A stretch of DNA of 64,000 bases from Pagrus major (lineage: Eukaryota > Chordata > Actinopteri > Spariformes > Sparidae), in NCBI RefSeq assembly GCF_040436345.1, contig NC_133232.1, positions 28,831,315 to 28,895,314 on the forward strand. Reading direction: 5' to 3'. Positions 34,734 to 62,635 of this stretch are shown here, one piece after another. Under the pieces are notes generated by a model, which was not told the DNA's origin, searched no databases, and worked only from the letters and a program-made list of their open reading frames with translations. Positions within the stretch are counted from its first letter, which is position 1. Each line of letters opens with the position of its first letter. A program made the translations under genes and the position numbers.

Positions 34734-34911
34734 TTCAATGGAGACACACACACACAAAGAGAAACATTTCCATAAAGTTCAGGGATTTATTTACCTTTGA
34801 CTTTAAGTAGTCTTGGACCAATACTGGTGTTAAAACTGTGCAAAATACTGTATATTTTCATAATTTGTACACTGTACAGTAAAAACATGTTCAATTTTAA
34901 AATATATTTTG

Positions 34912-34917
34912 AATAAA
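34912..34917 (+). terminator. nudt22: nudt22 polyadenylation signal (AATAAA)
   Basis: The first canonical plus-strand signal after the nudt22 stop codon, about 180 bp downstream. It lies between the convergent nudt22 and hnrnpul2 genes. Confidence 0.7.
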
Positions 34918-35159
34918 AATCATAAAAAGTGACCTGTTTTTTTCAGTTGTAGGTGATTAAAAAACTACAAAACTGATCTTTGATTGGCCAAAGCGAGTGC
35001 AACACAGACTGTAGTCTGTAGTTCTCTGTGTAAAATCAATTGGTAATGAAGTTAGCTCTCTTTAAAATGACATGACATTTCAATTTCATAGAATTATTGT
35101 CCATGTAAACAAAGATGCAAAAGTGCAGCAGCATCTGTTTCTTCTTGCTCCAGGTTTCT

Positions 35160-36798: not shown

Positions 36799-36871
<73 letters not shown>

Positions 36872-39137
36872 TTTGGGATTGATCAGATATTGAACATCAT
36901 CCTCAATGTATTCAATTTATACAATATAAAACTTGAGAGTGGTGACAGGAGGTTTGACAGACCATCATACACGTGAGCAGCTCCTCTGTGCCCAACAGTC
37001 TGTACTGTTTCTCTGGATGCTGCTTCATGTGAGTCCTGGCCCAGTGACTCTTCCCAGAGCCTGGAAGACCAACGATCAACAACACCTGGAGGGACAGAGA
37101 GAGAGATTCAAATGTAACAACTGCTAATGTCTAGCCTTTACATCCTGTATGTAAATAACCAAAATATGCTCATTTTAACAACACCACAGGGAACCATAAA
37201 TAACCTTGTGATAATGCAAATTCTACATTAAGCCTTTCTCTTATCCACGTTCAAATGCTTTTAATGGAAACCCAAGTACTGCCTCTCACCTCACACTGTG
37301 CTCTGGAGGTCGGAGCAAATATGGTGCGCACCCTCTGCCCAGCAGAAAGAGCTGCCAGCGGTGTAAACCCTGGAGGACCAGGGTACCAAGGAGGAGCTGT
37401 GGGGTCCAGGTGGAATCTGACTGAACAGCTCTTACAGAGGACGTGAGGGAACAGAGCGCGACCAGAGGCACCCAGGGAAAAGGCCACACCCATGAAACGA
37501 CCGTTTTTATGGAAAGAGAGCTCAACAGCACCGTCTGTAGAGAAAGACTGACACACAAACAGACACACACAGCTGAGATTAGGAAAAAGAAATGTCCTCT
37601 AATTTTTCCCAAACTAGATCTTTATGTAACAAGACGAGACAGTAAAGTTTCAAAGACTGTGAATAGAAACGTTTATTTTACAGCATAACAGCCAATGATG
37701 TCTCCCACTGAGAAGGGTTCTCCAAACTCTTCCTCCGTCCCACCTGACACTTTTTTACCGTGCCCATCGTAAGCAAAAGAGAGATCACCTTCACCTGGTG
37801 TCAAACAGAGAGAAAGCCAGAGGGACAAAGAAGCAAGTGATCTTAATGTGAATAAAGTGATCTCCAGAAAATGTGCCACTGTTCAAAAAGAACAGCTGAA
37901 ATGAATCTAATAATGACATGAATCCTTACCCAACAGTAGAGAGGTGTTAGTCATTGACCAGCCCACTCTCAGGCCGTGAGGATCCATTTCTTCTTGTGTA
38001 GTCGACAACGTCCTCTCCAGCCTCACCTCAAAGCCCACCATGCCCTGAAACACCCCATGGGTGAGCCTGCAGCCTGACCACAGCGAGGGGAATCGAGCCC
38101 AGAACCGCGGCTGACCACATGCACCGTCAGGACCCACCTCGAAGTGGAGGTGACTGTCATCTGTGCAACGCCAAGGAAAGTCAGTTATCTTCACAACATT
38201 AACTCACTACAGTTAATTAGATCAACTCAATCATGGGTGTTTCTTGTGTTGTGTTGTCTACAGACTTACATGGATTTAATCTGACTCCATCTTCCTCTTC
38301 TGTCTCCTCTCTGTCTGCTGGAGGCTGTGGTGATTTGGCTCTGGTTGAGAAGAGATAGAGACGCATGTTGCCTTAAAACACCCTTTTCAAAAAAGTATGT
38401 ATGCAAGTATGTAGCATAAACTGCCACACACTACAGCATTTATAGTCAAAGCTCATTGTCATGTTTGCTTGTGAAAGGTCATTGTAGGAGGTATGAAAAT
38501 CAGTAAGTTTAGGCATATATAAGGTTTAATCCTCACATTTATATGTATACCATCCCACGCCCATAACACAAACCTTCCTTCATGAACTGAACTGAAACTT
38601 TTAACTACAACCCATCTATGTTTACCTTTTGTATCGTATCTCCTCTTTAAACTCGTAGAAAGCTCTTCCTCTGCCCAGCTCAGCCCTCCTGTCCTCTGCA
38701 TCTCCCTGCTGCATCTCCACCTCTCCCTGCTCCTGCTCCTCCTCTTGGTGCACCGACACACACGCTGAAGTAAACTCGGAGCCTGGCTGAGGTGGAGTCA
38801 GGCCGGTGTCTGTCTCTGTCTGTGTGGCGGAGTCTGTGAACTCTCTGGCGGGGCTACGGTCTACTTTACGCCGCGCGGTGACATCAGCCTCTCTCGGTGG
38901 TGATGCGGACGGAGCGCGGACGGCGTCCACAGTCTCGGTCGGTTCCGAAGGCGTCAGCGAGGAGACATTTTGTATTTGTATCTCCTCCACAGCGTCTCCT
39001 CCGGGTTGTCTCGCCTCTAAAGCGGACCACAGCCTCCCGACCAGCTCAGCTTTCAGCCCCTTGTTGTCCAGCTCGAGTTCTTTGAGTTTGGACCGCAGCT
39101 CGGCCACTTTTAACTTCTTAATGTCCGTCAGCTTCAT
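35160..39137 (-). CDS. hnrnpul2: Heterogeneous nuclear ribonucleoprotein U-like protein 2
   Basis: Nuclear SAP-SPRY-kinase-fold protein linked to RNA processing and DNA-end resection in mammals. Eleven coding exons: 38626-39137, 38270-38340, 37930-38160, 37682-37794, 37290-37547, 36963-37085, 36696-36797, 36270-36438, 35744-35971, 35622-35662 and 35160-35228; all phases chain to TGA, 638 aa (human about 747). The SAP domain (1-40) reads KLKVAELRSKLKELELDNKG. An acidic/low-complexity stretch ends in GRAFYEFKEE, an hnRNPU-family mark. SPRY spans about 195-345 (FEVGPDG, HGLRVGWSM, FAYDGHGKKVSGG). A PNK-like P-loop GLPGSGKS lies at 401-408, and YILDQCNI follows. The C-terminus lacks the long RGG/RY-rich tract of mammalian UL2 and ends in CYYYRDSSYEGYW. 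Synteny with stx5 and tmem179b supports UL2 over hnrnpu or UL1. Confidence 0.9.
35440..35520 (+). repeat. LINE 3' tail fragment
   Basis: The end 'cggggatcaataaagtattt' followed by 'ctgattctga' is the familiar 3' tail of fish L2/Rex-like LINEs. It lies between the last two hnrnpul2 coding exons. Confidence 0.6.
36802..36870. repeat. (CA)n microsatellite directly upstream of an hnrnpul2 exon
   Basis: About 34 CA units. Read on the minus strand it is (TG)n ending in TATAG, and the exon begins at 36797, so the tract fills the position normally held by the polypyrimidine tract. Confidence 0.97.
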
Positions 39138-39529
39138 CGTTAAGTTACTATTGACTCTTCCGGTTCGAGTTATGGCTTCTTTAGTTAAAAAAAGAGACCT
39201 AAAGTACACTGTTAGTGGAAACACAGCAGCAGTTTGGATCAAAACATCGGTTCAATATGGTGCCCTGGTTTCTGATTGGCTCTTTACTTCTTCTTCTACT
39301 GTTCTTTTGTCAGCTCAGACACCGGAAGGAGTCTTTACCGCCACCACACGGTCAGAAATGTAACTACACCTGCTGTTCACTCATGGCTAATCAACATTAT
39401 TCAGGCTTTATCCATCGTTTTTCTCTTTTCTTTATTCTCTAATTTTCAGGTTGAAAGTCTACTGTAATGTGCTGTTGATTTATGAAGACTGATCCTAAAT
39501 TACAAAGCAGTTGTTTTTGACAGTCAGTG

Positions 39530-40215
39530 GTGGAAGAAGTATTGAGATCCTTTACTTAAAGGGTCTCTCCATCAACTTTACACATTAAAGTGTGTTTACG
39601 GGTCTTGGGGAGTACAACTACATATGTAAAAAAATAGCATTAAGCCTTTTGTGGCTCCAGAGGAAACTGCATGCAACCGGATAAACTGCATCCAGTGATT
39701 GCGTTAAATTAAATAAATTGCATTGTGGGTAATGTAGGCAACAGGTTTTTAAAAGGATGAAGAAAGCCTGAAATACATTTTAAAAAGGCAGTAGATCTCT
39801 GGTTCTGCTGCATCGATTTTGATCATTTGATTTTAAACTGTCCATAATGAGCCCAACACTGTTATAGGAGTGCAATAGACCAGTGGACTTCATTTTCAAA
39901 CCTACATTACCCACAATGCAACTTAGCCACTGAGTGACATCACTGGAGGCACTCAGATTACTTGCAGCTTCTTCTGGAGCTACAAAAGACTTCATAGTAC
40001 TTTTTCACATATGCAGTAGTACTCCCCAAGACCTGTAAACACTCTTCAAAGTGTGACATTGGTGGCGTTACCATTTAAGGAACCAAGTACTATTTAAGTA
40101 CTATTACAACAAATACTCTCAGACTCTGACAAGTAAAATACCTGCAGTATGTATACTGCAATACCTGAAGTACAAAAGTATTGCTAGCCAAATGTACTTA
40201 AAGTATCAGCAGAGT
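39530..40215. repeat. Dispersed 'agtactca-cttaagtaaaagt' fish repeat, split by a MITE
   Basis: Flanks 'cagtggtggaagaagtattg' plus 'gatcctttactta' on the left and 'aagtactatttaagtact' plus 'tgaagtacaaaagtattg' on the right belong to one common teleost repeat family. The same family appears at 5850-5950, 21060-21200 and 45250-45570. Confidence 0.55.
39557..40080. mobile_element. TTAA-flanked MITE nested in another repeat
   Basis: Inverted arms of about 110-130 bp: the left reads TTAAAGGGTCTC through 'gggtcttggggagtac', the right 'gtactccccaagacctgt' through 'ttaccatttaa'. A second inverted pair inside, 'attgtgggtaatgtaggc' and 'cctacattacccacaat', is shared with 58690-58800. No ORF is present. 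Confidence 0.65.
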
Positions 40216-40957
40216 GTCTACAGGTGGCAGATAATTTAATGAGACCCTTTTTAATAGGACCTTTTGAAGATATTTTTAACCAAATTTATGGAAAAATCAT
40301 CTTTTTCTTATTCAAGCACTGCAGGTATTTATAAAGGCAGGTAGTAAATATGTGGTACCATGCAGAGGTAGGTTTTATGTAGGAATTTGGTTGTTAGAAA
40401 GTGTTAGGTTAATCTAGATTTTGCCAACAGGTGAGTAGTACAAACTAAAGTACAAACTAAAGACAGTACTAGGTTTGGTCGTTTTTAATACTGTTTGTAG
40501 CAGTTAAGACCTCCCTAACAAATTCTGACAGTCAAAAGAATATTTAATGGCTTTAAGGGCCTAATATTTAAAAAACTAAAGTATTTTCCATTGACATACA
40601 GAAAACCTGTTCTCATTTATTAATTCATTTGGGACAGTGCAAGACACATTGTAAGAGGTTACAATAATCAAAAAAAAGATGTGTGGCATATAGGATTTCT
40701 AGCCAAAGCTTATTTATCACCACTATTATGAATGTTCATGATGCCCTTGTAGAGCTAATCTGCTCTGCTAGTTTATTTGATCTATTTATATGTTGTTTAT
40801 ATGTTGCAGTTATGTTCCTCTTTAAAATGTGAGGGACCTAAAGCATAAAAGCCTGCATGTAGTGGAATAACACTCTCAACTTATCAGTCAGTATGGATGT
40901 GTATGAACATTTTTAGTAAGTATAAGTTGAAACAACACTCTTTTATAACGGAAGATT

Positions 40958-40963
40958 TTTATT
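40958..40963 (-). terminator. tmem179b: Candidate tmem179b polyadenylation signal (AATAAA)
   Basis: Minus-strand AATAAA about 2.15 kb past the tmem179b stop codon. If used, it gives a 3' untranslated region that covers the otherwise gene-less 41.0-43.1 kb stretch, including the plus-strand open frame at 41086-41580, which has no ATG start. Confidence 0.35.
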
Positions 40964-43111
40964 CGACAAACAAGACAAATGCAAAAACATGAATGTGAAT
41001 GAGCACAAACGGTATAAGAGGTAAAAAGCAAGACTGTTGTCAGTTTTAATACAAAAAACATTTCATATATTACATTTAATGTCACGTGACACTACTGTCT
41101 CATCTCTCATTACTTCAGATTTGTTTCTCAGCTGTCTGTGTGTCATTACAACCACTTGGGTCAGTGATGGAGGGAGGAGCTTTGAATCATTTTAGTTCAT
41201 ATCTTCTTTCCTCGTCACTGACCCGTTTGGGGCTCCGCACAAATCTCTCTCAATATGAAAAGTACTTTCTAATAACACAGACTAAGTATCATCTGAGAGG
41301 AGCTGACAGCTTCATTATCACCCTGAGCGGCCACGTCCACACAGACAGCGTCATAATAACAATCGTCACAAGAAGAGAGAAGGTCAGCAGTGATTTTTCC
41401 GTTACACAACATTCGGGTCATGCTCACACAGTGAGCCTGCTTCTCGAACACGGTGGCTCAGTCTCACTCTCACCACTGCTTCACAATAAAAGCTCCTCAG
41501 TGCTACATTTTAATATTACATCAGAACATGTGTTCTCCCTGATGAGGACAAAACTGTGCAAAATGTCAGACTCCATCTGAAATGTAAACAACCATGCATA
41601 TTAAATATATTCAAAACGTACTCTAGGAAAACACCATCTGGTTGCTTGTGGTCAAATGACAACAATAAATAACACTGTGGTTATTAGATCACTGAGAACA
41701 TCTACAAATAATCTGATGAGTGTTTCTTTTCTGTCTCTGTAAAATCCCTTTTTGTCCCAAGACAGAGGTGAAGTTAGTTCCAGTTAGTGCTCACCGTCGG
41801 ATTTAAGTCAGAGCAGAGCCTCTGTGTTTTTCTGGAAAATAAAGTCCCACACAGATTTTAAAACACTAGAAGCTTGTTTAACAACACTTTGTGCTACGCT
41901 GAATCTGAATCCTTCGTGATTCTTCTAACCACATATTCAAAAAACTTCCTCCAAATTGTAACTCTGTCTCCTGACTAAAACAAAAATGTAGCTGTAAATA
42001 ACACATATCCTTGCTTGATTTGTACACCATACACCAAAATTTAAAAGCTTTAAAATCAATTATATCTCTCGATAATGATGTTACTATCATTTTAAGATTT
42101 CATACTGCAGCTATGTGCAGTAATTTCATGTCATAGAAAACAAGCAAGGAGATTTGTAATGCTGCATTCATGTGAGGTCTTTAGATTGGGTAAAACACGA
42201 ACACTTAGTCGTGTTCGCACATTTGTTCCAACATTTTCTGCCTAAATTAGCTTGTCGTGTTGTGTTATGTATTTGTATGTTTGTATAAACTGTGTATGGA
42301 TCCTTTTAAATGAGATGAATCTGTTGTTGTAGTGTTAATAATGAGTTTCATTTACATGTAACCCAGATATTCTACTTGGAGGCTGACATGGACGTACTTT
42401 CTCCGTTTGGTTGCTCATAATTAAGCTCAGAAATGACGTGAGCTACTGGATATTGGCGTGGGAAATGGAGTCACAACTTTTGATTTGTCTTCATGGTTTT
42501 TGGAAAATGTTCTTTCCTTTGTTTTTTTAAGATCAACTGGTATTTATCATTTAGAAAAATAGATGTTTCGTTCTGTGACTAAATAAATTCATGAGAGGCA
42601 CAAACTGGGTCCAAGTCGTGGTGTCACTGTGAGGTGACGGGTGCTGTAATGTAAGAGATGTTGGCCCTGCTCTAACATCATATCATTATATAATAAAGCC
42701 TGATCAATATTTGAGAATTTGAAAATCAGATATATTTTAGTATCAAGAGATAACAACCAGATTCTTTGGTTCTTAAAAAACTGTGACTTATTTCAGATTT
42801 TACAGTAAAAATGAATGTCAGCGCTCTTTAGAGAGAAAACTCTGTAATGTTTTGAAATGACCTGATAAACATCTTTGGCATTTCTGTTCTGTAATTTCTT
42901 GTTACGTATCAACTCACATATAGAATCTATCGGTCAGGGTCTATTATATAAGATGATGAATTATGATTCATATCAAATAAAAGCATGTCCGTTACTATAC
43001 GTCTTCATTCTACATGCAGCTGGGACTGTAGAGCAGAGAAAATGAGGTTCAAACTAAACTTAGCTAATGGTGTTAAGTGTATCATCTTCCATCAGTACCT
43101 CACACACTCAG

Positions 43112-45990
43112 TCAGACTAAGAGGGTGGGTGTCGCTGGAGGAGGTGAGGGCGAGACGCTTTCAGACGGACTGTGTCCCAACAGCAGCTCCTTCTCTCGGG
43201 GGCGACACGGCCCGGTGATGTGCTGACTGTGAGAGTGGTACAGCCGCAGGAACGCCAGGATGGACTGAGCCAGCCACAGAGCCGTCACACACCACAGAGA
43301 CGCCTGAGGACACACAGAGTGATTAATTGAGCTAACAGTCACACTTATATAATGAAAACAGCAGAATAAACTGGAAAGCTGTGGGCACACTTAGAAAAAG
43401 CCAATATGGGTGCTGGTGTGTGAGTGATGGCTGCCAAGAAGAAGGTTTTTCAGTGGGTCAAATGGGTCTGGTGTTAAGAGGGATTAAGAATCAGGACGTC
43501 ATGTTTCTTTGGAAGAACCAGAAAGAAGCTACACCCGTGGAAGAGTCACAGGAATCAGATTGCACAGCTGTAAAGCTTGTTGTAGGTCGACTTACACTTA
43601 GGCCTGTCACGAACACTACTTTAGTTGGACGATATGTTCTTACAGAAATATTTTAAGACCATTTATGGCACTATTATGAAGATATTATTGCATAATAATA
43701 AATAACTTGACAATAAAAGAGTAATGAACTTTTAGTCCTTGAAAACACTGAGTTAAAGCTTGCTGGCGACGACTACAATAGCTTCCACGTTGACTGAAAA
43801 AAATGACATCGCCACTGAGATTATCTCTGGTAAAACAGAACAAAATCCCTCTCCTCCCACACTGACATGGTCCAACATGAAAACACCGAACAATGAACTG
43901 AAACAAAACAGGAATTCAGTCCGTCTATCAGGCTAGATTACATCAGATGCACCCAATTAGTTAATCCAATAACAGCTAAAATGAAAAGCTTGTCTGTTCT
44001 CTGCTGAATGCTCGCTGCAGCAGCTGGTGTCAGTGTGCAGCCAAAAATAGTTTGTGAATAAAAAGACACATTATTATGTAACAGTGTACATGAGAGGACT
44101 GTGTGCTCAGCAACAGAGTGGTGACCCTCCTCCAGAGAAACTATCAGCTGATTTAACTTGAGGACAGTAGATTACAGTTGTAATTTGACGGTGGGTATAT
44201 ACAGTATATTCTGCTGCTCATCTCATGTTCAGGTTGTAGCTACAGACTGTTAGCATTAAATACTGTGTTGTTGCTGCACTAAAATGTGTATTAATGCCTA
44301 AAATGTTGACTTTAATTGCACGTAGCTGTTTGCACAAATAACCTTGGAAGAAATATTGAGTAGTCGGTTCCTACCTGTGCCAGACTGAGCTCTGTGTAGA
44401 AGGAGGAGGTGTCCACATCCAGGTAAAGAGGAACAGACTGGGACTCTGCACAGCTGAACACAAACACACATGAAGAGATGAGAAACACATTTTTTACATC
44501 TGTCTGATGTGACATTTTATCAGTCCGACATCACCACTGGATCCTAACTAACATATCGGCCAATATTATCGATATTATATTATTTTTTAGAGATTATAAT
44601 GCAGATTTTTTCCTGCTTGGAATAATGTATGATCACAGAAATCCCCGTAGGTTTACTGTTTCTGTAGTGGTGTTCAAGTCAGGAGACTCCTCTATGGACC
44701 CCATTTTAGAAGTACTCCTGACAGATCAATTACCAACTCCTAAACCAAACATCCATACACAGGATGATCCACCATTTAAGTTTCTCATCAGACTGCCAGT
44801 ATACCTGTACGGCCGTGTGTTGTCATTCGTCACAGTGTCACACCAGGAAACCAGTCCCAGAGACAGGAGGACGCTGGCCCCTCCAGACAGGAAGAGCACA
44901 CACACACTCAGCAGCACCGTCAGGAAGGACGAGAACAGAGTGCTGAAGGAAACACACATCACAAACATCAGACGTACTGTGTGGTGATTTAGATAAAAGT
45001 ACTGACCTAAAGCTATATGTTGGCGGACACTCACTATAGACATATTGATAATGTATTTCAGCTTGTGTATAAAGGCAAATTCATTTTGGAGTGAAATACA
45101 TTTTGGACATAGCTATTTATTTGCTGAGGAGTGCTGTTTTTACAGCTTGAAAGTTATTTCCAGTCTCTAAAATATATTTAAAATAGTACTTTATATGACT
45201 ACAGCTACCACTGAATTATTACTACGGCAGAAACCAGATGTACAATCCTTTAATTACAAGTGAATGTAGTAATACTAGACTGTAAAAAGTACAAAAGTAT
45301 TCACATCAAAATATACTTAGAAACCCAAAAGCCTATTTTAAAATAATGTACATTTAATTACAGAATTATAACTATTGATGCCTCTTTGTTTACATCACTA
45401 AAATGTTGCAGCTCTTAGTTACTTTACACTGCTATCATATTTTACTACTTGTTAGGTATTTTGACTCATAAATTTGCAAAGTAACTCATGAAGCAACGAG
45501 TAAAAAGTACAATTAAAGTACAATATTTGCCTGCAAAGTTGCGCACAAGAACAGTACTTGAGTAAAAGTACTTAGTTCCAGTGACAGCTGTGTATTAGTA
45601 CTGAGCTGTGCAGAACCAGGTCAGTAATGTGTCGGGGTGTGTGTGTGTGTGTGTGTGTGTGACTCACTCGTCATGCCGCCCGTGCAGATAGAAGAGACAC
45701 CTCCAGCCCTGCGCGGCGCCGTACAGCACCGTGAAAATACCCACAAATGTGGAGAACTGGCAGGCGGCCAGCGGGCCCCACTGCTGCACCACCAGGTGAG
45801 ACACTTCTCCCGGCTGCCCCGTCAGCTCGGCCCGGTCCTCCGTCCTCCAGTAGCCGGTGGAGAAGAGTGCGCAGCGGCCTTTGAACGCGGATCCGTTCAG
45901 AGCCATGGGGACGACCACCAGCAGACCCGCCACCACCGACAGGGCGTGGGTGGTGCAGTGCGCGAGCAGCAGCCGCCGGTCCAGCTCCAT
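43112..45990 (-). CDS. tmem179b: Transmembrane protein 179 family, probably TMEM179B
   Basis: Four-pass membrane protein of unknown molecular function. Four coding exons: 45668-45990, 44805-44942, 44375-44453 and 43112-43303; phases chain to TGA, giving 243 aa. Predicted helices lie near residues 12-31, 76-95, 112-140 and 181-201. Family marks are GSAFKGRCALFSTGYW, QQWGPLAACQFSTF, SLGLVSWCDTV and a C-terminal EKELLLG. Several of these resemble TMEM179 (A) as I remember it at least as closely as human TMEM179B; the B assignment rests on linkage to hnrnpul2 and stx5, as on human 11q12.3. The start is the only good ATG ahead of the first helix. A GC-rich upstream stretch (about 45990-46210) is a plausible promoter. 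Confidence 0.82.
45636..45661. repeat. (GT)n microsatellite
   Basis: A short GT tract immediately beside the donor of tmem179b exon 1, in the intron. Confidence 0.9.
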
Positions 45991-46009
45991 TTTTTATTAT
46001 TCTGACAAA

Positions 46010-46210
46010 AACTAAAAAGTGTTGTAGTTATAAACAAAATGTGGAGTGAAGCAGGCGCATCTCTGTTGTCTCCCCCGTGACGGTGCCTGGTGGTGGTATT
46101 TAAAGACGCTGGGGCGGGGCCGTGCGTTACACAACACCCCGCCCTCATCGGACACGCAGAGAGCAGGAGGAGGAGGCACAGAGGTCTCACTCCGCTGCAA
46201 AGACCAGGAA
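46010..46210 (-). promoter_or_regulatory. tmem179b: Probable tmem179b promoter
   Basis: GC-rich sequence upstream of the tmem179b start codon, with CpGs and a GGGGCGGGGC GC-box at about 46111-46120. No TATA box was seen. A 'catttacatttacattcagg' repeat begins just beyond, at about 46222. Confidence 0.5.

Positions 46211-47757: not shown

Positions 47758-47836
<79 letters not shown>
47758..47836. repeat. Long (CA)n microsatellite
   Basis: About 39 uninterrupted CA units, the longest simple repeat in the window. Confidence 0.98.
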
Positions 47837-47837
<1 letters not shown>

Positions 47838-47839
47838 AG

Positions 47840-48510
47840 GTATAGGTATCCAAGAGAAGACTTCAGTGGCCATGCTCGACATCTGCAGAAAACAAAAGTA
47901 TGCATTACGTAGAGTCAACCTTTATATTAAAACAGAACAACAAAAGATTTTAATGTTTGTTTCATCTTTCAAAAGTCTGTTTTCAAACAGTCAGTAATGG
48001 AGAGTGAAAGATTTATCTGAATGGTTTCAGTCAGTGTGTTTTAAAGACGACTCTGAACTCGACCACCAAACATAAATCCTCAACCTGTTAAATCACTGAC
48101 TCACATTTAATTAGGTCAAGATTTCAGCTTCCATCACATCCTGTCAGGATTAATATAAACATCTATTTCAAACTCAACTGTTAATAATGATCACTGAGCA
48201 ATCACAGCTGTGAGTCACAGAGCTGATACCAGAACATGTTTGTCTCATCGGCTTAATAAATTAATCAATTAATTCATTATAAATATGGATTCTGATGGAG
48301 CTGGAAACAGGAAGCCATTAGCCTAGCTTTAGCATTTGAACTGTAAACAGGGTTAAACAGTTAGCCTGGTGCAGGAAGGTGTATTTCTAACTTTAGTCTG
48401 TTTCCTCCTGCTTCCAGTCTTTATGCTAAGCTAAGCTAATCACCTCCTGAGTTTAACTGCACATTAACAGACAGACATGTAACAGTGGTATCAATCAGCC
48501 TCAACTCTGA
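47840..48510 (-). repeat. Duplicate of the last exon region of the Ig gene
   Basis: 47884-48046 is alignable with 49846-50012 (shared 'aaaagtctgttttcaaacag') and 48420-48510 with 50058-50150 (shared 'acagacagacatgtaacag'). The acceptor TTTTCTGCAG of the terminal Ig-gene exon is kept at about 47884-47896. If spliced from the transmembrane exon it would add only DVEHGH before a stop. It is either an alternative short tail or a decayed copy. Confidence 0.6.
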
Positions 48511-48779: not shown

Positions 48780-49618
48780 CACAGCTCCAATCTGTCCCTC
48801 TCCACTATCCAGGTGAGAAACGAACTGAGGAAGATGAAGGCAAAGAAGGCCACGGGTCCAGACGGGATCAGCTCCAGGCTCCTCAAGTCCTGTGCAGACC
48901 AGCTGTGCAGGAATGTGGAGTACATCTTCAACATGAGCCTGAAGCTGGGAAAAGTGCCACTGCTGTGGAAAACCTCCTGCGTGGTACCAGTACCAAAAAA
49001 ATGACCAAAAGTCACCCAAAAGACCCTGTACACTGCAGACTTCTCCCACCAAACACCACACCGCCATCTACAAAAGTTCTCTGACGACTCTGCTATCATT
49101 GGCCTCATCAGGGACGGGGATGACAGAACCTACAGAGAACTTATTCAGGACTTTGTGGACTGGTGCCAGCGGAACCACCTCCAGCTCAACGCCGGGAAGA
49201 CCAAAGGGCTGGTGGTGGATTTCCGCAGGCACAAACAACCCTGCACACAGGTGAACATCCTGGGAACGGACATTGAGATGGTGACGTCTTACAAGTACCT
49301 GGGAGTTCACCTGAACAATAAACTGGACTGGACTGATCACACTGCAGCAACATACAAGAAAGGTCAGAGCAGACTCCACCTGCTGAGGAAGCTCAGGTCC
49401 TTTGCAGTGCAGGGGGCACTCCTGAGGACTTTCTATGACTCTGTGGTGGCATCAGCCATTTTCTATATATATACGAGTCTATTTTATTTCTTATCTTTTT
49501 ATTATATTGTTTATTTTTTACTTTTAATATTGTTTATTGTAATGTTCCTGTCCTTTGGCTGCTGTGACACAGAAATGTCCCCATTTGCAGGACAAGTAAA
49601 GGAATTCTGATTCTGATA
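48780..49618 (+). mobile_element. L2/Rex-like LINE remnant with internal deletion
   Basis: The translation starts with ATGPDGISSRLLKSCADQL and VPLLWKTSCVVPVPKK (reverse transcriptase fingers). It then jumps to LYTADFSHQ and KFSDDSAIIGLIRDGDD (the catalytic DD box), followed by KTKGLVVDFRR and VTSYKYLGVHLNNKLDWT. The palm region between PVPKK and the DD box is missing, so the element cannot code for a working enzyme. It ends in 'ggaattctgattctgat', the family tail. It inserted beside the duplicated Ig-gene terminal exon. Confidence 0.85.
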
Positions 49619-49759: not shown

Positions 49760-52700
49760 TTACAAACCACCATTGCTGAGAGACTGGCTTGACATGGCAA
49801 TCTCTGTATCATCACAAGGACGCCTTCTCCGTAGTGACTCTGCAGAAAACAAAACAAAAGTATACATTACAGAAAGTCAACTTTTATATCACACAGAAAT
49901 GATTTTGGTGGGGATTTTAATGTTTGTATCATCTTTTAAAAGTCTGTTTTCAAACAGTCAAGAATGGAGAGTGAAAAGTTGCTCTGAACGGTTTCAGTTT
50001 TACTTTCATTGTTTTACAGAAGAATCTCAATGTTCCATGTTACACTTGTTACACAATGCTAAGCTAAGCTAACCACCTCCTGAGTTTAACTCCACAATTA
50101 ACAGACAGACATGTAACAGCGGTATCAATCAGCCATCAGTCTCTCTGTGAAAGAAAGCTAATACTGGTAAGGGTATTACTTAAAGTGTTGAACTGTCCCT
50201 TTAAAAGATTACAGCCTGACATATTCAGACCTACAACATTCAAACCAGAAGTATTAAATCTACTGATCTGGAAAACTAGTCCAGTGCCTCCTGTTTTAAG
50301 TCCGTTTCTGCAGTCAGATGTCTTTTACCAAACCAGTTAGTTGAGAGTTAATTCAAAGCATCATTCATTAAATGATAAACTGGATTAAAGGAGCATTCTG
50401 TAGTTTTGTGAAAGTAATCAGAAGAGAAAGATCTTCATTGACTGATTTGTTTTCATGACTAAATAAACTCAATTAACGAACTATACGAAAAATATGAGTG
50501 GGTGATATTCAGAGGTCTGTCTGATGGAGCTTAATCAATAGTGTTAGGCAATGATTCATGAGTGTATTTCATTTTCTTTTCATGTAATCCGTCAGTATTA
50601 TAACCAGAGGCCTCATGTAAATAAACAGAAGGGTTCAAATCTGAGGAGACAAAAACAAACTGTCTGGACGTGATTGTATCACACAATGTATCTGTAATGT
50701 TGATGTCTGAACATGATGTGTTGATATATATTGATACAATACATAACATTAACTTACCTCGATTACAGGTTACTGTGATGCGCTTTGTAGCTACAAGCAC
50801 AGCCAGAACTGCAGCAAGAACTACAGCAAGAACTACAGCTCCTAAAACGAATCCAGCCAGCCATCCAATGACCACTTTGGTGGATGGGTCCCCTGAATCA
50901 CATCACAAAGAGTTCATGTAAAACTCAAAATGTTACTGCATATCATGTAACTCATGACACACTGAACATAGACTACACAGAACAACATTTAAAGGTGTCT
51001 AAAATATTTTAAACTAATGACACATGAACAATTAAAATCATTTGATGAGTAAAACATCAAGACACAAATCTCACCACTGATATACACTTTGGTCTCAGCA
51101 AAAGCCTGATGGCTAATTTCCTCCTGTGTGACATGACAGCGGTAGCGTCCTGTCTTGGTCACAGTGGTGTTGAGGGTAACATGGTAACGGCCTCCTCTCT
51201 CTGAGACCTGAGGCTCCTCAGCAGGAAGGATGTTTCCAGCGCTGTCCTGCCACTCGACTTTAGGTTTTGGAGAAGCTCCTCGAACATCACACTGCAGCAG
51301 CGACCAGTCCTTTGTGATATCAAGTATTGTGATGCTGGACTTTGATGCACCTGTGAACATAATAAAAAAAAAATTTTTTTAAATGTAAATGTAACAATGG
51401 CATGTTTTTGTGTTTCTACCTTCACTGACTGTGGTTGTATGGTAAATAAGCTCACCCCTTCAAACCTGTCCAACCTCATTAAACCTCATATTCCATTTAT
51501 TTAATTCTTAATACGGTATTAACTAATATTTATTGATGTACTCTTATTGTAAAGTGTTACCTTGAAATTTTGACTCAGGCTAAATTCAAATATGAATCAC
51601 AGCTTAATTTTGATCACAATTTCCCATCCAATGACCACTGAGTCCCCTGAATCACATCACAAAGAGTTCATGTAAAACTCAAAATGTTACTGCATATCAT
51701 GGACAACACACTGAACATAGACTACACAGAACAACATTTAAAGGTGTCTAAAATATTTTAAACTAATGACACATGAACAATTAAAATCATTTGATGAGTA
51801 AAACATCAAGACACAAATCTCACCACTGATATACACTTTGGTCTCAGCAAAAGCCTGATGGCTAATTTCCTCCTGTGTGACATGACAGCGGTAGCGTCCT
51901 GTCTTGGTCACAGTGGTGTTGAGGGTAACATGGTAACGGCCTCCTCTCTCTGAGACCTGAGGCTCCTCAGCAGGAAGGATGTTTCCAGCGCTGTCCTGCC
52001 ACTCGACTTTAGGTTTTGGAGAAGCTCCTTGAACATCACACTGCAGCAGCGACCAGTCCTTTGTGACATCAAGTATTGTGATGCTGGGCTTTGATGCACC
52101 TGTGAACATAATAAAAAAAATAAATTAAAAAATTAAATGTAATAATGGCATGTTTTTGTGTTTCTACCTTCACTGACTGTGGTTGTATGGTAAATAAGCT
52201 CACCCCTTCAAACCTGTCCAACCTCATTAAACCTCATATTCCATTTATTTAATTCTTAATACGGTATTAACTAATATTTATTGATGTACTCTTATTGTAA
52301 AGTGTTACCTTGAAATTTTGACTCAGGCTAAATTCAAATATGAATCACAGCTTAATTTTGATCACAATTTCCCATCCAATGACCACTGAGTCCCCTGAAT
52401 CACATCACAAAGAGTTCATGTAAAACTCAAAATGTTACTGCATATCATGGACAACACACTGAACATAGACTACACAGAACAACATTTAAAGGTGTCTAAA
52501 ATATTTTAAACTAATGACACATGAACAATTAAAATCATTTGATGAGTAAAACATCAAGACACAAATCTCACCACTGATATACACTTTGGTCTCAGCAAAA
52601 GCCTGATGGCTAATTTCCTCCTGTGTGACATGACAGCGGTAGCGTCCTGTCTTGGTCACAGTGGTGTTGAGGGTAACATGGTAACGGCCTCCTCTCTCTG

Positions 52701-55700
52701 AGACCTGAGGCTCCTCAGCAGGAAGGATGTTTCCAGCGCTGTCCTGCCACTCGACTTTAGGTTTTGGAGAAGCTCCTCGAACATCACACTGCAGCAGCGA
52801 CCAGTCCTTTGTGACATCAAGTATTGTGATGCTGGGCTTTGATGCACCTGTGAACATAATAAAAAAAATAAATTAAAAAAATTAAATGTAATAATGGCAT
52901 GTTTTTGTGTTTCTACCTTCACTGACTGTGGTTGTAGCGTCACTCTATAATCACCAGTCATACTTATTCTAAGCTGAGGGAATACATTATACGTATATGC
53001 AAACCTGTTGTACTTGTAACAATAAATCAATGCCACCGAACAAAGTCGTGCAGTTACAGCAGCACTCACTGTACATATCGCCTTGTGGTTTTTGCCACAG
53101 GAACCCGTATCAATGCTGCAGAAAATCTGAGTAAGAATATTGTTTTATTTTATTTGCACAGATGTTCTTGCTCTTACTGAATTACTGAATGTGTTTGTAG
53201 TGTTCCCTGGCTGTTTATCCACACTGGCCAGCCTTTATAAAATAAAATAAAAAAAAGAAAATAGTTCTGTAGGCTATATTAATCAGTGACCTATGACATT
53301 AACTGGCATATACAAATAAGAGACAACGCGCTCAACAATGTTTTGGGTTAGGGAAAGTAGTTTCCTTACATTTTGTGTTCAAGAAGAGTCAAAAGACGCA
53401 CCTAACGCCCCTTTTTATGGAAACATGAGCTTGACTCATGCTCCGTATCAGCCTGAGCAAACAACAGTATCTGAAGCTCAGAAGCTACATTAGCTTCAAA
53501 TGATCAGTCAAAATGTTGCTGAAGACAGATTCAGTGCAGCTGCCTCTAAGGAAACAGCAGTGTTTATGTGTATTTACAGTCAGATGTTAACAGGACATTC
53601 ATTTGGAGATGTGATAAAATAGTTTTAAGAACCAAATCAAAGCTGATTCAATGAAGTGATCAGCTGACATGATGTTTGTTAACCTGCAGCTGCTGGTTGT
53701 CGATCTGCTCATGTCTACCTGCTGCACTGTGAGAACAACACGTCTAAATGAAGTTACTGCATCAAAACCTGAGGCACAAAAGAGTTGTAGCACACCTTAC
53801 AGGTACAGAGATCAGTGACATCATCACTCACCTGTGGTTTCCCCTGATCGGTCTCTCAAGATCCGTCCTGAAAGATAAATAAGAACATTATTTTTTGTCA
53901 AGTGAATGGGTGATATTATGAACTTGCCATAGGTCATTACTGGATTAATTTTTCAACATGAGCAGAGGAGCCAATTCACACAACACAAACCACATATTAA
54001 ATGAGGGAGCTGCATTCTTAAACTATCGTCTACTAACTAAGTAGGAAGAAGTAATTAGGCAGCACTCCACTCCTCAGCTTCCCGTTTCCTTTTTTACTAA
54101 GTTGCAGAGTTAGAAGATTGACACCAAAAGCTGCAGTTAGTGCTGGTTAGCTTAGCATAGCATAAAGACTGTAAGCAGGGGAAACAGTTAGCCTGGCTCT
54201 GTCTAAAGGTAAAGTCAGCATCTAGTAGCACTATGGAGCAGTATTTCTATGAGTGGGTCACTGTTTCACACTGTTGCACTAACCTATAGGTGACCTACCA
54301 GTGTCCTGCTGCCAGCATATAAAAGAAAAAGATAAAGACACCAAGTTACAAACATGCATGTAAACACTGCAGCATATAAAATTGGCTTTGCAGAATTTTT
54401 GGGGGGAAACAAATACATGCATTATATCTACATTATCTGGTGAGTAACACTGAACTGTTGTTTGTTTACAAGAAAAATCAGGAGTGGTTAGAGCATGCAG
54501 GAGCAGCAGCAACCTGAGCTGAGATTACAGGCAGACTGGTTAGTGAGCAGAAGAAGAGGTGCAGCTCCTCCACCAAGCAGAGACAGAGAAGATCTTGTAG
54601 GCAGGAAGAAGGCCAACATGTAATTGATTGGTGCTGCTTAGTAGGAAAGAAAGAAGAAAAATCATTGAAAATATTTTTACAGAAACACATTTAAACAAGT
54701 CTAGTGAGCAGAGACAGGTGATCTGTTTTTCCTTCTGGTTTTTCATTCATATAAGAGCTTTTGCCGGGACCTCTGTTGGCTTCCTGTTGGGGTCAGACCA
54801 CATGCCATGCACTTTTGCACTTAAGGTATCCTTGATAAATAGCAGCTACTTTGCTCAGATGAGGGCTTGAAAATTGTTTCTATCTTTTCTTTTCTACTTT
54901 ATCGACGGTGATATGTTGTGGTTTCTTTCTTGTGACAATTGTACTTATTGTAAGTCGCTTTGGACAAAAGCTAAATGCTTTTAGCCCTAAATGTAAATGT
55001 AAATGTAAAAAGAACTATCTTTAAAGGTGACATATTATGCTCATTTCTGCTTGTTGACATGGTTCCTTGATGTCTAAATGGAATGATAGTAACATGCTTT
55101 GGTCGAAAAAAATGAAGGATTGAGCACAGCAGGGGTGTTTACACACCAGTTTCACAGCCCTGTTTTAAGCGGCTGGTTTGAGTGCCTTTCCCTTTTATGC
55201 TAATGAGCTACTCCCACCACTTCCTGCCGGGCGGAAGACGTGAGGACGGCATCGCGTGACCATGGCAACGAGCTATACACATTTGCGAAGCAACTTTTCT
55301 GTGTCCATGCCTGCATATAACTGATAGTAGCACAGCAGACATGTAGCAGCTAACCCCTGTCTCCGGCTCCAAAACAAAGTAGTGATTGCTTTACTGCAGG
55401 TAACGTGCAGGTCACTGTCCTTTAGCACAACATGCTAATGAATTGTACCTCACCGTCCGCTAACAACCGAGACATTTCACCCCGTCTCCTCTGCGTGTTC
55501 ACGGCCAAGCAGTGGTTCACCGGCCAGTTAGAAGCGATAAAATCTCAATATCCTAATTAATTTTCTCAATTCACTGTCATGTTTTAAAAAGAGTGCTGAT
55601 ATGACAAATCGTGAATACTACGGCCAGTAAGCCCAACGTTGATAACTTCGCGTTAGTTCAGCCTCATATTTACATCGACGGTTAGCGTTAGCATTAGCGT

Positions 55701-58700
55701 TAGTGTTAGCGTTAGCTAATGTGCTAAACGGCCAAAGTAACACAAACTACACTGTTTTTTAAGTACTTACAGCTCCATCATTGACAGTGGGTATGGATCC
55801 ATCTTTTAAGGGACAATCTTGTTGCCAGTCCAGCGTCCAGTCCTGACCTGGTTGCTGAAGCAGTCCGACGTGAAGTGACTGGCACAGACGTAACGCTTTG
55901 CTCACTGAAGCTGGGACGTTTCCCTGATAAATAAAATGTAGCCGCTTCGCTCTGATATCCTCTTTGGCAGGGAGGCCATGTAGCGAAACAGGAGGATCCG
56001 TGCATCCGACGACAGAGCAGCAGTGCTCGGCTTTCGGGTTGTACATGGTAGCGGTCAGGCTGTCGCGTACAAGTTCAGCGAGAACGAGAAAAATGGCGGA
56101 TCCTCGTCCAGGTAGCTGGCGACCTGTGGGAGGAGATACCCAGCGCGAGGGCTGGAGTATGCAAAAGACCGGATTGTGACGTCACAATCCGGTCGAAATC
56201 CAAACGGCTCGTTTAGAGACCCAATCCCTGACTCCAGTAATTTACGAAATATTGACTTAGTTGTCGAAAAATCATGCTTAAGGGGTGGGGAGGCACTCCG
56301 AATACGCAAATATACATACTAAAGCAAGGAAAAAGTGAGTTTTGCATAATATGTCCCCTTTAATACAATATTGTGTTTTAATGGCGCAAACAGAGAAACT
56401 GATCAGCTGAAATCAGAAAGTGAAGTGAAGCTGTCCGCCCATAGCTATGGTACTAAGAAGCCCATTTAGATTTTGTCCAAGAATAGGTTAGTTCTGCGTC
56501 AGTTTTTCCATGAAACATAATATTTCATATTTCATACACTGTTCTTTTTACTACATATTTCTCCTCTATCGCACCATGCACTTGAGTTTATGCACCATGC
56601 ACTTGATTTTATGTATTCTTGTATGTATTCTATTCTTGGAAAGTGTCTTTGAGAGTTTTTAAAAGCGCTGTACAAATAAAATGTATTATTATTATTATTA
56701 TTATTATTTACAACAACGTATTCCATGTGCTCTTTGTTTTACTTGCACATTTAAGTTAAATGCTACATATTTACCTTGGGCTCAACCCTGTGGACTATCT
56801 TGAGCCAGGACACTTTGTTTTTTTGCATATCAGTGCTTGATTGTTAAATACAATAATGTGTTTACAGTAAAAAAGATTCTGTAACTTCCCTAAGCATCAA
56901 AAGTTTTCAAATTTATCTTTACGTTAGAAAGATATTGAAGATTTTATTTTAAAATTCAATAATTAATGACAGCATGACAACTATATGAGATTATCAGGTG
57001 TCAAAAAGGAAGAATAGATGGTCAAACCTACAATAACAGCTGGAGATCTTGTCATACAGCAAATTAACTGTTTAATGAAAGTACTCACCAACAACAAGCT
57101 CAATGTTGAATGTTCGTCTTGGCTCAGGAAGTGGAAAAATGCAGCTGTAGTTCCCGCTGTCAGCCGCCTTCGTATTATGGATCTTTATGGAGGCGTTGCC
57201 GTTCACCAGTTGATCTTGAAAATGTGAGACTCGACCTCTGAACTGCTCATCTTGACCTGTGCGGCCGTTATTGTAATGAATATCATTATTATAGAAGAAC
57301 ACCTCCTTCTGACCATCTTTCTTCCAGTCAAAGAGCTTTACTATGATGTCCTCCTTGGTGCTGGGGGAACAGGGTAAAACAGCATCACTGTCTTCTTCCA
57401 CGACCACTTTGACACCTGAAAAATAAAGTAAATTTAATCATTATGTTCAACGGAGAGCTGTCAGGTTAAAACATTTGCTCTGCAACACCAGTTTACAAGC
57501 ATGGTAGTTTGTAATCAAATTATTTATGGCTATAAGTTTTCCTCAACATCACACCTCCTGAAATATTCTCCCTCAGGAGACAGCTTTGATAGATCAGTTT
57601 GTGTGACAAATCCAACCTCAGCGTTATTTCAGTGATGACATCATCAAACCTGTATGACCTGGATATGAAAACTGTGTTTAGAAACATTTGAAGAGAGATA
57701 TTTTCTGATGTGTTTGGAGCTGCTTCTGGCCTGCTGTACTGCAGGCTGACAGAACCTCACACTGTCCAAAGAGACAGTCACAACACTGGACAACCTGGAG
57801 CCTTTCTTTACATTCTGACTTCTTACTAAGAGAGTTTAGAGTTTGAAACGTGCATATTATCACAGCGGATGAGACAACACAACACACACATTTCTCTTCA
57901 TTAACAACAAGATTAAGAATATTGTAAACAGGAGACTCTCAGGTGAAATCTGAGCTCAGTGCCTGTGATTCTGTTAAATGTTGGTGATCAAGTTTTGTTT
58001 GTATAGTTGTATAAATAGAACCAGAAATCATTAAGAATCAGGTGAAGGCATTTGAATTTATGATCCCTGCATCAGAGCACAGTGATCAAAGTAGAACAAG
58101 TAAGTGGTGGGCATCAGACTATGGAATATGCAAACCACATGTGGAAAACCTGCTTGCAAACATCACTACTGATTTCTGTAAGTAGCTTTTTAAAAAATGC
58201 ACAGTTTGAATCAAACTTCATGCCCATAATCAGGGCGTCACTTTGTGTTGAAGATATATATCAGAATTGGATTATATGTTGCCCGATATGCACCATTATG
58301 AAATCTTTTCTGGACTATAATCCAAAAGAATTATATTTTATATTAGGACCCGGGTTGAAAATGTTGCCATACTTTCACACCAGGATCACCAGCAGCCAGT
58401 TCTAGCAGTCGCTGATGGAGAGCAACGATTTCTAATTTGTTAGTTAACATTTTGGTGTAAGCTAGTTTACAGAACATTTTTTTAAATGATGCTTTTAAAA
58501 AGTGATGGAGACAAAATTGGCAATTTGAAACATAAAAGAAACCTGTGCCTATAATTATCAATAATGACACAAAATAATTATTTTTAAATACTGAATCCTG
58601 AATTAAGTATTTAAATGAAATTTAACCACATAATTTTGCAACAAGCTGGGATGCATGTGATCTGATTAACTGCCTCCAGGGATTTCACAAAAAGGTGTAT

Positions 58701-60156: not shown

Positions 60157-60846
60157 AACAGTCTTTCAGAAGCACAACAGTCTCTAGCGGCACATACCGT
60201 CATGTGTCGGTGGAATATCAGCGGCATACCACTCCAAGGAACGGTATAAGAGTCTAGGGATCGGTATATGCCACTGAGCAGCAATCGACATACCTTTGGC
60301 CACTTTTCGATCTCGGCGTCACTCCCCTTTTGACCGTCAGGTCTACTTGCAACAGTGTTTAGAGACAAATGACTCATTTTCATTAGCTGGTGCATCAAAT
60401 GGTTCAACATCAGGTGGATGTGACTGAGGTAGGGTGCCATCATCGGTGCCCAATTGTGCCACACTTTGATTATTTTGCTATATACCGTTAGTCTTGAACA
60501 AGACAAACTGTCTTAAAACAAGAACTACGGCGGCACTCCCGAGCCAACTGCTCCACCCGCTTGATGACACGAAAATAACAAACGGCTTAAAACAAAAAAA
60601 AACAGTACAACCACCTTATGTGGCTACGCGGAGTCAGGAGCAGACGCGGATTAATGCACAGACGCAGCCTAGGGAAGCCTCGGCTGCAGCGCACATCACA
60701 AAAAGAGACTGAGCTGTAACGTGAATGCAGTACATTCACTTTTTCTTACCGTTTTGGTGTCCGAGTATTTTCCCATCAGGTGTCAGAATAAAGACACCGA
60801 TCAAAAGACTCCCCAGAGCTGTCGGTAGAAGTTTAAATCCCGACAT
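49760..60846 (-). CDS. B7/butyrophilin-like immunoglobulin membrane protein with three C-type domains
   Basis: Likely cell-surface immune co-signalling or adhesion receptor. Exons: 60750-60846 (signal peptide, ATG 60846), 57089-57415 (V-type Ig), 53831-53866 (linker), 52572-52847, 51824-52099 and 51075-51350 (C-type Ig), 50758-50892 (transmembrane) and 49760-49839 (tail, stop TAA). Every junction is phase 1 and the frame closes: 500 aa if all three C exons are used. The V domain has VLPC, FDWKKDG and DSGNYSC. Each C domain has LLQCDV, KVEWQDS and GRYRCHV plus an NTT glycosylation site. The membrane helix is GFVLGAVVLAVVLAAVLAVL. The tail begins ESLRRRRPCDD, is about 26 residues long and has no obvious ITIM or ITAM. 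I cannot name the ortholog; B7-H3, HHLA2 and butyrophilin-like fish proteins are the nearest types. Confidence 0.82.
50880..52937 (-). repeat. Tandem triplication of a 748-749 bp C-type Ig exon unit
   Basis: Three head-to-tail units begin near 50880, 51624 and 52372. The 276 bp exons within them differ at only about three to four positions, and long intron stretches are also near-identical. The left end of units two and three holds a shortened copy of the start of the transmembrane exon (about 51624-51646 and 52372-52393), so duplication began inside that exon. The third unit diverges after 52937, which marks the other breakpoint. Confidence 0.93.
52938..53830. other. Intron of the Ig gene, nothing recognised
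   Basis: Between the outermost C exon and the linker exon I find no exon, RNA or repeat I can name. Confidence 0.5.
54118..54210. repeat. Single arm of the 'gttagcctggctctgtc' MITE
   Basis: Matches the left arm of the 7158-8269 element over 'gttagcttagcatagcataa' and 'aaacagttagcctggctctg'. No partner arm is nearby. Confidence 0.55.
54944..55013 (-). repeat. Short dispersed fish repeat
   Basis: Contains 'gtaagtcgctttggacaaaa' and a 'gtaaatgtaaatgtaaa' tail. It is the reverse of the repeat at 46222-46262. Confidence 0.6.
55021..56363. mobile_element. Kolobok-type DNA transposon, non-autonomous (1.34 kb)
   Basis: The ends are TTAAAGGTGACATATTATGC and GCATAATATGTCCCCTTTAA: near-perfect inverted repeats just inside TTAA on both sides. 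A TTAA target site, a purine-GG terminus and a THAP-like ORF (55759-56046) together are the signature of the Kolobok superfamily. The remaining transposase is absent. The element sits in the intron between the V-type and linker exons of the Ig gene. Confidence 0.72.
55759..56046 (-). pseudogene. THAP-like zinc-finger ORF of the Kolobok-type element
   Basis: From ATG 56046 the 95-codon frame contains CCSVVGCTDPPVSLHGLP, KRLHFIYQGNVPASVSKALR and LCQSLH, then CPLKDGSIPTVND. Spacing and conserved words match the THAP-like DNA-binding domain seen in many fish transposon proteins. The second half of the domain is degraded (normal C-x2-H followed by F is altered), and no catalytic domain follows. 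It is probably not functional. Confidence 0.6.
56364..57088. other. Intron sequence with a short (TTA)n tract
   Basis: Holds a duplicated 'gcaccatgcacttga' word at 56573-56606, a TTA run at 56686-56708 and otherwise AT-rich DNA. No exon was found. Confidence 0.5.
58680..58830. repeat. Fragment of the 'gtgggtaatgtaggc' MITE family
   Basis: Shares 'gggtaatgtaggcaagaggt', 'ttttaaaag' and the 'aacactgttggactcattat' block with the centre of the element at 39557-40080. Confidence 0.55.
59049..60322. mobile_element. DNA element with about 165 bp terminal inverted repeats
   Basis: The arm at 59049-59215 (start AGTAGCGCCGAGATCGAAAA) is inverted at 60157-60322 (end TTTTCGATCTCGGCGTCACT) with few mismatches, including 'cgacacatgacggtatgtgc'. 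The interior contains a separate insertion at about 59585-59880 with the familiar 'gcgttcacaccggac' end, plus CA and GT microsatellites at 59905-59930 and 60122-60154. No transposase frame was seen. It lies in the first intron of the Ig gene. Confidence 0.75.
59585..59880. repeat. GCGAC/GTCGC-rich nested repeat
   Basis: A dense series of GAGCGA and TCGCTC words includes a perfect 20 bp palindrome, CTGAGCGATTAATCGCTCAG, at 59660-59679. The 5' end 'tgcgttcacaccgga' is typical of a class of non-autonomous fish DNA transposons. Confidence 0.6.
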
Positions 60847-61849: not shown

Positions 61850-62635
61850 GAGGAGACATCTTCTGCCCAAGATGAGGACACGTCCTCTCCTGAAGATGAG
61901 GGGACACCTTCCTCAGAGGATGACAGCAAAACCACGGATGAGGAGTACCAGCCAGTGCCTGATTCCTCTTCCTCAGGGGAAGAGGACGATACAGACACAG
62001 CGGTGGAGGCCGAGCAGCTGATGGCAGAGACAGAGGAGCTGGCGGGTGAGTGGATGTCTCGTCATAGGAAAATTATGTGGTTTCCCACTCCTGAAGAGAC
62101 CCTGCACTATAATCCAGTATCCACTGGTATCACCCCAGGGCCCACCCTGTATGCAGTTGCCCGCATCAGCAACCTGAGGTCTGCCTTTGACCTGTTTATA
62201 ACAGAGGAGATAATTCAGCTGCTGTGCACCCACACAAACATGCATGGGAGGCGAAGGTGTGAGGATTGGAGGGATGTGGATGAAGTGGAGATGAGAGCCT
62301 ACATTGGGATTCTGGTTCTGGCTGGCGTCTACCACTCAAGACACGAAGCAACACGTGGCATGTGGGATGCCAAGACAGGACGGGCCATGTTTCGTGCTAC
62401 GATGCCCCTCTACCGCTACACTCGGCCATGTCCCCCACGCTCAGCAGCTGCTGCTGCCATTGTTACCGGGATACAAGAGGGTGAATCAGAGTGTGACCCA
62501 GAACCTGCCAACAAATTAGGAGAAGGTGTGAACTGTGCACCCAAAGAGGAACAAGAACGGCAACCACTTCTCCAACTGTGGAAAGTGTGTCTGCAAGGAC
62601 ACTCTGCTGTGGTTTGCACATCCTGCTGCTCTTGA
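61850..62635 (+). pseudogene. piggyBac-like transposase with internal deletion
   Basis: An open frame of 261 codons without a good ATG near its start (the frame enters through a CATAG acceptor-like junction). An acidic Ser/Asp/Glu-rich N-terminus is followed by KIMWFPTPEETLHYNP, RSAFDLFITEEIIQLL, VEMRAYIGILVLAGVYHS and TRGMWDAKTGRAMFRATM, the N-terminal half of the DDE_Tnp_1_7 (piggyBac) domain. After about 62420 it jumps to a Cys-rich C-terminal tail, QGHSAVVCTSCCS, like the piggyBac zinc-binding end. The part holding the catalytic aspartates is gone, so it cannot transpose alone. The retained frame suggests a recent deletion. Confidence 0.85.

Follow-up and report, generated by a model that had tools for sequence, protein, structure and literature searches.

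In a 64,000-nucleotide window of the Pagrus major genome (positions 28831315-28895314 of contig C18; genome of 785.9 Mb in 25 contigs), a minus-strand gene that we assign to the B7/butyrophilin-like membrane immunoglobulin (Ig) family carries three nearly identical tandem copies of its C-type Ig exon. We consider it probable that the array arose by a recent two-step tandem duplication of this exon in an otherwise intact gene, and that the product has one to three C domains. Feature coordinates below are window positions unless given on contig C6, where all other relatives found are located; the C18 gene is solitary on its contig.

The three C exons lie in register on the minus strand, with unit spacings of 749 and 748 bp, so that the order in the direction of transcription is C3-C2-C1. 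Unit U2 is 97.7% identical to U1 (754 columns) and 99.6% identical to U3 (542 columns), and a 300-bp block is 100% identical across all three units, while unit 3 is without about 207 bp of upstream intron common to units 1 and 2. A chance repeat was rejected, given matches of 540-750 bp at 97.7-99.6% identity. The window contains no sequence gaps (N), and the C-exon array is confirmed in it as assembled. Among the 40 of 112 genome-wide candidates that were scored, C exons at 99-100% identity are these three alone. The exons differ from one another at three bases, each of which alters a residue (Ser/Pro, Ile/Val and Arg/Gln); between C1 and C2, this amounts to three nonsynonymous and no synonymous substitutions. 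The acceptor TTCACAG, the donor GTG/GTGAGA and phase 1-1 are the same in C3, C2 and C1, which suggests that the three exons can be joined in any number. The original prediction, made from the letters of this stretch, had described a very recent, near-identical tandem triplication of a 276-bp C exon in 748/749-bp units, with phase 1-1, good splice sites and these same residue differences. The unit identities bear out both the repeat and its recency, the three base differences agree exactly, and the splice sites are as described. To this description we add the minus strand, the shortfall of intron in unit 3, a 36-bp mini-exon between V and C, and remnants of the transmembrane (TM) exon between the C exons.

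The differences among the units indicate growth of the array in two steps, with almost no divergence since the second. C3 and C2 with their flanks differ by one base and by one A in a run, and the junction blocks that follow them are identical, whereas unit U1 differs from U2 and U3 at about nine places. C1 thus split off first, and the ancestor of C2 and C3 was copied again later. Because both junction blocks open with copied sequence of the C-TM intron, its TM acceptor and the initial TM codons, the break of the first step lies some 30 bp within the TM exon; the remnant start of the TM exon carries a net loss of 9 bp. We propose that the block copied in step 1 started in the intron ahead of C and took in roughly the first 30 bp of the TM exon, giving C - TM remnant - C - TM, and that in step 2 the block of C, remnant and junction intron was copied again, with almost no divergence since. 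At the Ser/Pro site, Pro is found in 10 of 11 C6 sequences and is the common state among the C6 relatives, which makes the Ser of C1 the probable derived state. The nine U1/U2 differences, collapsed by hand, are clustered (chance 0.0001 for two such long gaps), which hints at conversion, though weakly, since an A/T run mutates faster than the remainder. With an assumed substitution rate, the last step would date back some 10^5 years as an order of magnitude; conversion could make it appear younger. Contig C6 was rejected as direct donor of the third copy, its best C exon being 89% identical. Unrelated filler between the units is likewise not required, as the start of this stretch resembles the intron directly upstream of C in one C6 gene (33 bp, 85%) and its middle consists of an interspersed-repeat fragment.

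As read from the sequence, the gene has eight exons, encoding a signal peptide, V, a mini-exon, C3, C2, C1, TM and a tail (Table 1). A signal peptide, a single TM helix and one domain for each phase-1 exon follow from this reading, not from a predictor. Every internal exon join is in phase 1, splice sites are canonical across the eight exons, and the Ig cysteines are retained. The predicted products are stop-free, with 500 residues when three C exons are included and 316 with one, and the tail of 25 residues contains no tyrosine. In Pfam, the V exon matches the V-set domain PF07686 (E value 3.3e-10) and the C exon matches PF22705 (C2-set_3, the butyrophilin C type; 6.2e-9), which is found in three stretches of the 500-residue model. 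Compared with solved structures, V and C together rank CD276 (B7-H3; 2.3e-14) and BTN3A3 (3.5e-12) first, while C alone places Robo2 (7e-8) and DCC ahead of BTN3A3 (5e-5). A single-sequence structure model of the C exon is all beta, with a predicted local distance difference test (pLDDT) of 70 and a predicted template modelling score (pTM) of 0.59. Searched with this middling model, Foldseek returned no match at E <= 0.001, and butyrophilin ectodomains appeared from rank 5 with a template modelling score (TM-score) of about 0.5, below unrelated beta proteins. The 500-residue model has no Pfam match to B30.2/SPRY, a further downstream exon not having been searched for, and butyrophilin proper was rejected as a class for the modelled protein. 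The domain matches and the ranking of CD276 and BTN3A for V and C together support the proposed membership of the B7/butyrophilin-like family. Inside the TM exon, a 12-bp tandem repeat (3.4 copies, 50799-50839) lengthens the hydrophobic stretch, and the C6 relatives are shorter there.

The relatives form a one-chromosome B7/butyrophilin-like family at C6:2.43-4.27 Mb, with at least 39 V exons and at least 31 C exons. With the V exon as query, the 40 of 76 candidates scored were the exon itself and 39 on C6 (2.47-4.27 Mb, 86-90% identity), and one V match is present in the C18 region; with the C exon, the candidates scored were the three C18 copies and 37 on C6 at 77-90% identity. A 32-base C-exon pattern with at most three mismatches occurs at 34 places, three on C18 and 31 on C6, and its reversed control at none. 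Since diverged C exons escape the pattern, the C6 counts are lower bounds. The C6 pattern matches comprise 29 single loci and one older C-C pair, with no other pair closer than 11 kb, and a scan of 14 C6 stretches (12 distinct loci, some covered for 1-1.5 kb per side) found one C exon in 11 loci and two in one. The nearest relatives over C, intron and TM, C6:2879954 (88.0%) and C6:3167684 (87.6%), each have a single C exon in 10 kb.

The older pair sits in the gene at C6:2443075-2436900, in which V, a mini-exon, two C exons and a TM-like exon are all in phase 1. Its C exons are identical at 255 of 276 positions in a unit of about 1354 bp, and it has no junction in common with the C18 array. 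This independent case shows that doubled C exons are tolerated in the family. The upstream introns of the pair (about 190 bp) show 182 identities, two mismatches and 16 gap positions. Viewed on its own, this pair (C6:2439050-2437418) has 21 differences in 276 bp and 17 amino-acid changes (counted by eye) beside nearly identical upstream introns, and looks like the outcome of diversifying change or conversion. At C6:3419624-3423013, two C exons come after a V exon; they differ in subtype, share 52% and 70% identity with the C18 C exon, and are both open and in phase 1 by reading, with a TM exon sought only to 0.7 kb. A near-identical block start also occurs at C6:2508653, 2577453 and 2626825, where a signal-peptide-like stretch precedes a partial C exon by about 1.4 kb. 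A V exon comes next at the first two of these, and several further partial C copies of equal extent are found elsewhere on C6.

The favoured reading, a recently multiplied C exon in an intact gene, predicts a type I membrane protein in which one to three near-identical C domains would act as a spacer and set V at a greater distance from the membrane. The number of C domains would be set by splicing, with the C exons joined in series in at least part of the transcripts, and probably also by allele: near-identical units of 748 bp favour unequal crossing-over, so length alleles among individuals are plausible. Several observations weigh against this reading. Each C-C intron contains a TM-exon remnant with an exact copy of the TM acceptor, followed by an in-frame stop. 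The C donors are the lowest-scoring in the gene (7.84 versus 8.6-12.5 for the other donors, on a scoring matrix with which the 732 GTs in the gene span have a 95th percentile of 5.35 and a 98th of 7.72). Neither C6:2879954 nor C6:3167684 has a V match within its 10-kb stretch, so the intactness of these comparators is uneven. Lastly, the ratio of nonsynonymous to synonymous substitution rates (dN/dS) of C1 against six type-1 C6 exons is 0.82-1.35, by itself no sign of constraint. The dN/dS sample consisted of 11 stop-free C matches covering the query from residue 1 to residue 90 or beyond, taken from at least 20 listed and two extra loci with partial ones excluded; against the five other C6 exons the ratio is 0.41-0.57. 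Such values fit a fast-evolving family and do not prove constraint on the array.

The remnants bear most directly on splicing. The original prediction held that the three C exons could be spliced in series, and this stands in so far as they are phase-compatible and leave an open V-C-C-C frame of 500 residues; it had overlooked the remnant. With a TM-acceptor copy and a stop in each C-C intron, splicing in series is feasible but cannot be taken as the plain default, and it would have to compete with the remnant acceptor. The introns after C3 and C2 are 177 nt long and identical to each other, and compared with the 182-nt C1-TM intron they have 176 identical positions, one mismatch and five gap positions. 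Beyond the acceptor, the remnant reads GDSVVIGWEIVIKIKL and stops after 16 residues, which would end predicted proteins at 261 (V-C) or 353 (V-C-C) residues. Donor-like sites downstream of the acceptor (AAG/GTAACA at +86, score 6.77; GGG/GTGAGC at +191, 7.86) could define a remnant exon, and AATAAA is present at +113 and +146. A cryptic exon, with a decay-inducing or a secreted product, is therefore possible. The array would then be real with its extra copies not used serially: either a single C is used, or C3 or C2 is joined to the remnant, giving a poison exon or an anchorless V-C or V-C-C protein. We regard this as unlikely, though worth keeping in view, since the acceptors of C2 and C1 are also intact and unchanged and an open frame is kept in every C copy. 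The AATAAA pair is weak evidence, with a chance of two or more in 230 nt of 0.006 under a gene-wide base model but 0.053 under a local one, and it was looked for post hoc. The remnant signals also sit in a common repeat fragment (+86 to +150), which has 23 other matches in the genome.

A false expansion by one or two units in the assembly is improbable. Units 2 and 3, at 99.6% identity, are the kind of repeat in which assemblers may err, but the differences peculiar to U1 mean that at least two units are real, and the whole array spans only about 2 kb. The contigs are of chromosome size, and neither the window nor 200 kb of C6 contains an N, which suggests, without proving, a long-read assembly. 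We give still less weight to a combined arrangement in which unit number varies by individual, the choice of one, two or three C domains is made by splicing, and remnant and repeat together yield a secreted V-C or V-C-C; the choice between membrane and secretion would here be a by-product of exon duplication and of a mobile element that brought a donor-like site and AATAAA. Least probable, and very much so, is that the gene on C18 is a duplicate from the C6 family, dead or not expressed, with a neutrally drifting array. It is a lone copy apart from the C6 cluster with mobile-element fragments around it, and its dN/dS is near 1 against the six type-1 relatives, yet its eight exons keep an open frame of 500 codons, canonical splice sites and the Ig cysteines. 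An intact and presumably expressed gene is the reading we retain.

Tandem Ig-exon duplication inside one B7 gene is already known, and 4Ig-B7-H3 and the C-delta blocks of fish IgD are the nearest precedents. In PMC3172298, mammalian B7-H3 is described in 2Ig and 4Ig forms that arose by tandem exon duplication, both seen in reverse transcription PCR and differing in shedding, and short VC forms are reported for fish B7-H3. The C18 gene resembles 4Ig-B7-H3 (CD276) in belonging to the B7 family, in having very similar Ig exons tandemly duplicated in one gene, and in that CD276 is its best V and C structure match. In 4Ig-B7-H3, by contrast, the V-C pair is doubled to V-C-V-C, whereas here C alone is tripled to V-C-C-C; a V-C pair duplication of that kind was rejected, only C being repeated beside the one V of the C18 region. 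Teleost IgD is likewise a fish Ig-superfamily gene with repeated C exons. According to PMC5192425, its C-delta blocks are repeated, with domain number varying by species and transcript, including four C2-C3-C4 blocks in zebrafish and 3-19 heavy-chain constant (CH) domains in sturgeon. Unlike the C18 gene, IgD is an antibody heavy chain with multi-exon blocks and is not B7/butyrophilin-like. BTN2 and BTN3 have the same V-set plus C2-set_3 ectodomain but one C exon against three, and no B30.2 was found in the modelled C18 protein. Also comparable is the gene at C6:2443075-2436900, where V, mini-exon, tandem C exons and TM exon are in phase 1, although its pair is older and separate from the C18 array. 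Soluble B7-family forms through splicing or shedding are known (PMC8438243); PMC13403563 and PMC12841164 provide context only. In a partial literature search, we recognised no published description of this gene or of any V-C-C-C B7 protein. The C18 gene stands apart in three respects: only its C exon is tripled, this happened so recently that just one to three bases separate the copies, and TM-exon remnants lie between them.

Table 1. Exons and junction blocks of the C18 gene, in the direction of transcription (window positions)
Feature	Position	Strand	Description
Putative signal-peptide exon, coding part (MSGFKLLPTALGSLLIGVFILTPDGKILGHQN...)	60750..60846	-	Ends in phase 1; donor GTAAGA; similar stretch in C6 genes
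V-type Ig exon	57089..57415	-	327 bp, phase 1-1; PF07686 E 3.3e-10; C6 relatives 86-90%
Mini-exon (stalk)	53832..53867	-	36 bp, 12 codons; phase 1-1; splice sites; C6 matches 85-91%
C exon copy C3 (first in gene)	52572..52847	-	276 bp; PF22705 stretch in model protein
Junction block 1: TM-exon remnant and intron with interspersed-repeat fragment	52183..52394	-	Acceptor ends at 52395; GDSVVIGWEIVIKIKL, then stop
C exon copy C2	51824..52099	-	276 bp; phase 1-1
Junction block 2	51435..51646	-	Same content as block 1; identical over all 212 bases
C exon copy C1 (adjoins TM exon)	51075..51350	-	276 bp; PF22705 E 6.2e-9
Putative TM exon	50758..50892	-	135 bp, phase 1-1; hydrophobic stretch and splice sites
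Cytoplasmic-tail exon, coding part and stop	49760..49839	-	25 residues, ESLRRRRPCDDTEIAMSSQSLSNGGL minus split codon; similar stretches in C6

Around the gene, a second copy of the tail-exon region lies at 47758-48500, with an acceptor followed by DVEHGH and a stop beside a (CA)n run, and may be an alternative last exon. Between the two tail-exon regions is a reverse-transcriptase-like fragment (49005-49610, plus strand; PF09004, E 2e-7). A transposase-like reading frame on the plus strand (61850-62635; PF13843, E 1.1e-9) is, we assume, of piggyBac type. Neighbouring genes within 32663-46027 include, by Pfam, a NUDIX domain (33 kb) and a SAP domain (39 kb), and a frame at 45.7-46.0 kb without a Pfam match is one that we take to be TMEM179-like.

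Joint use of the three C exons would make this a V-C-C-C B7-like protein observed shortly after it arose, one that can be compared with single-C and double-C relatives from the same genome. The gene could then serve to test whether a co-signalling ligand stands at different heights above the membrane in different individuals, and how splicing handles truncated membrane exons left by duplication. Without such joint use, the array would represent a recent exon duplication of an ordinary sort, in an immune gene family that changes fast.

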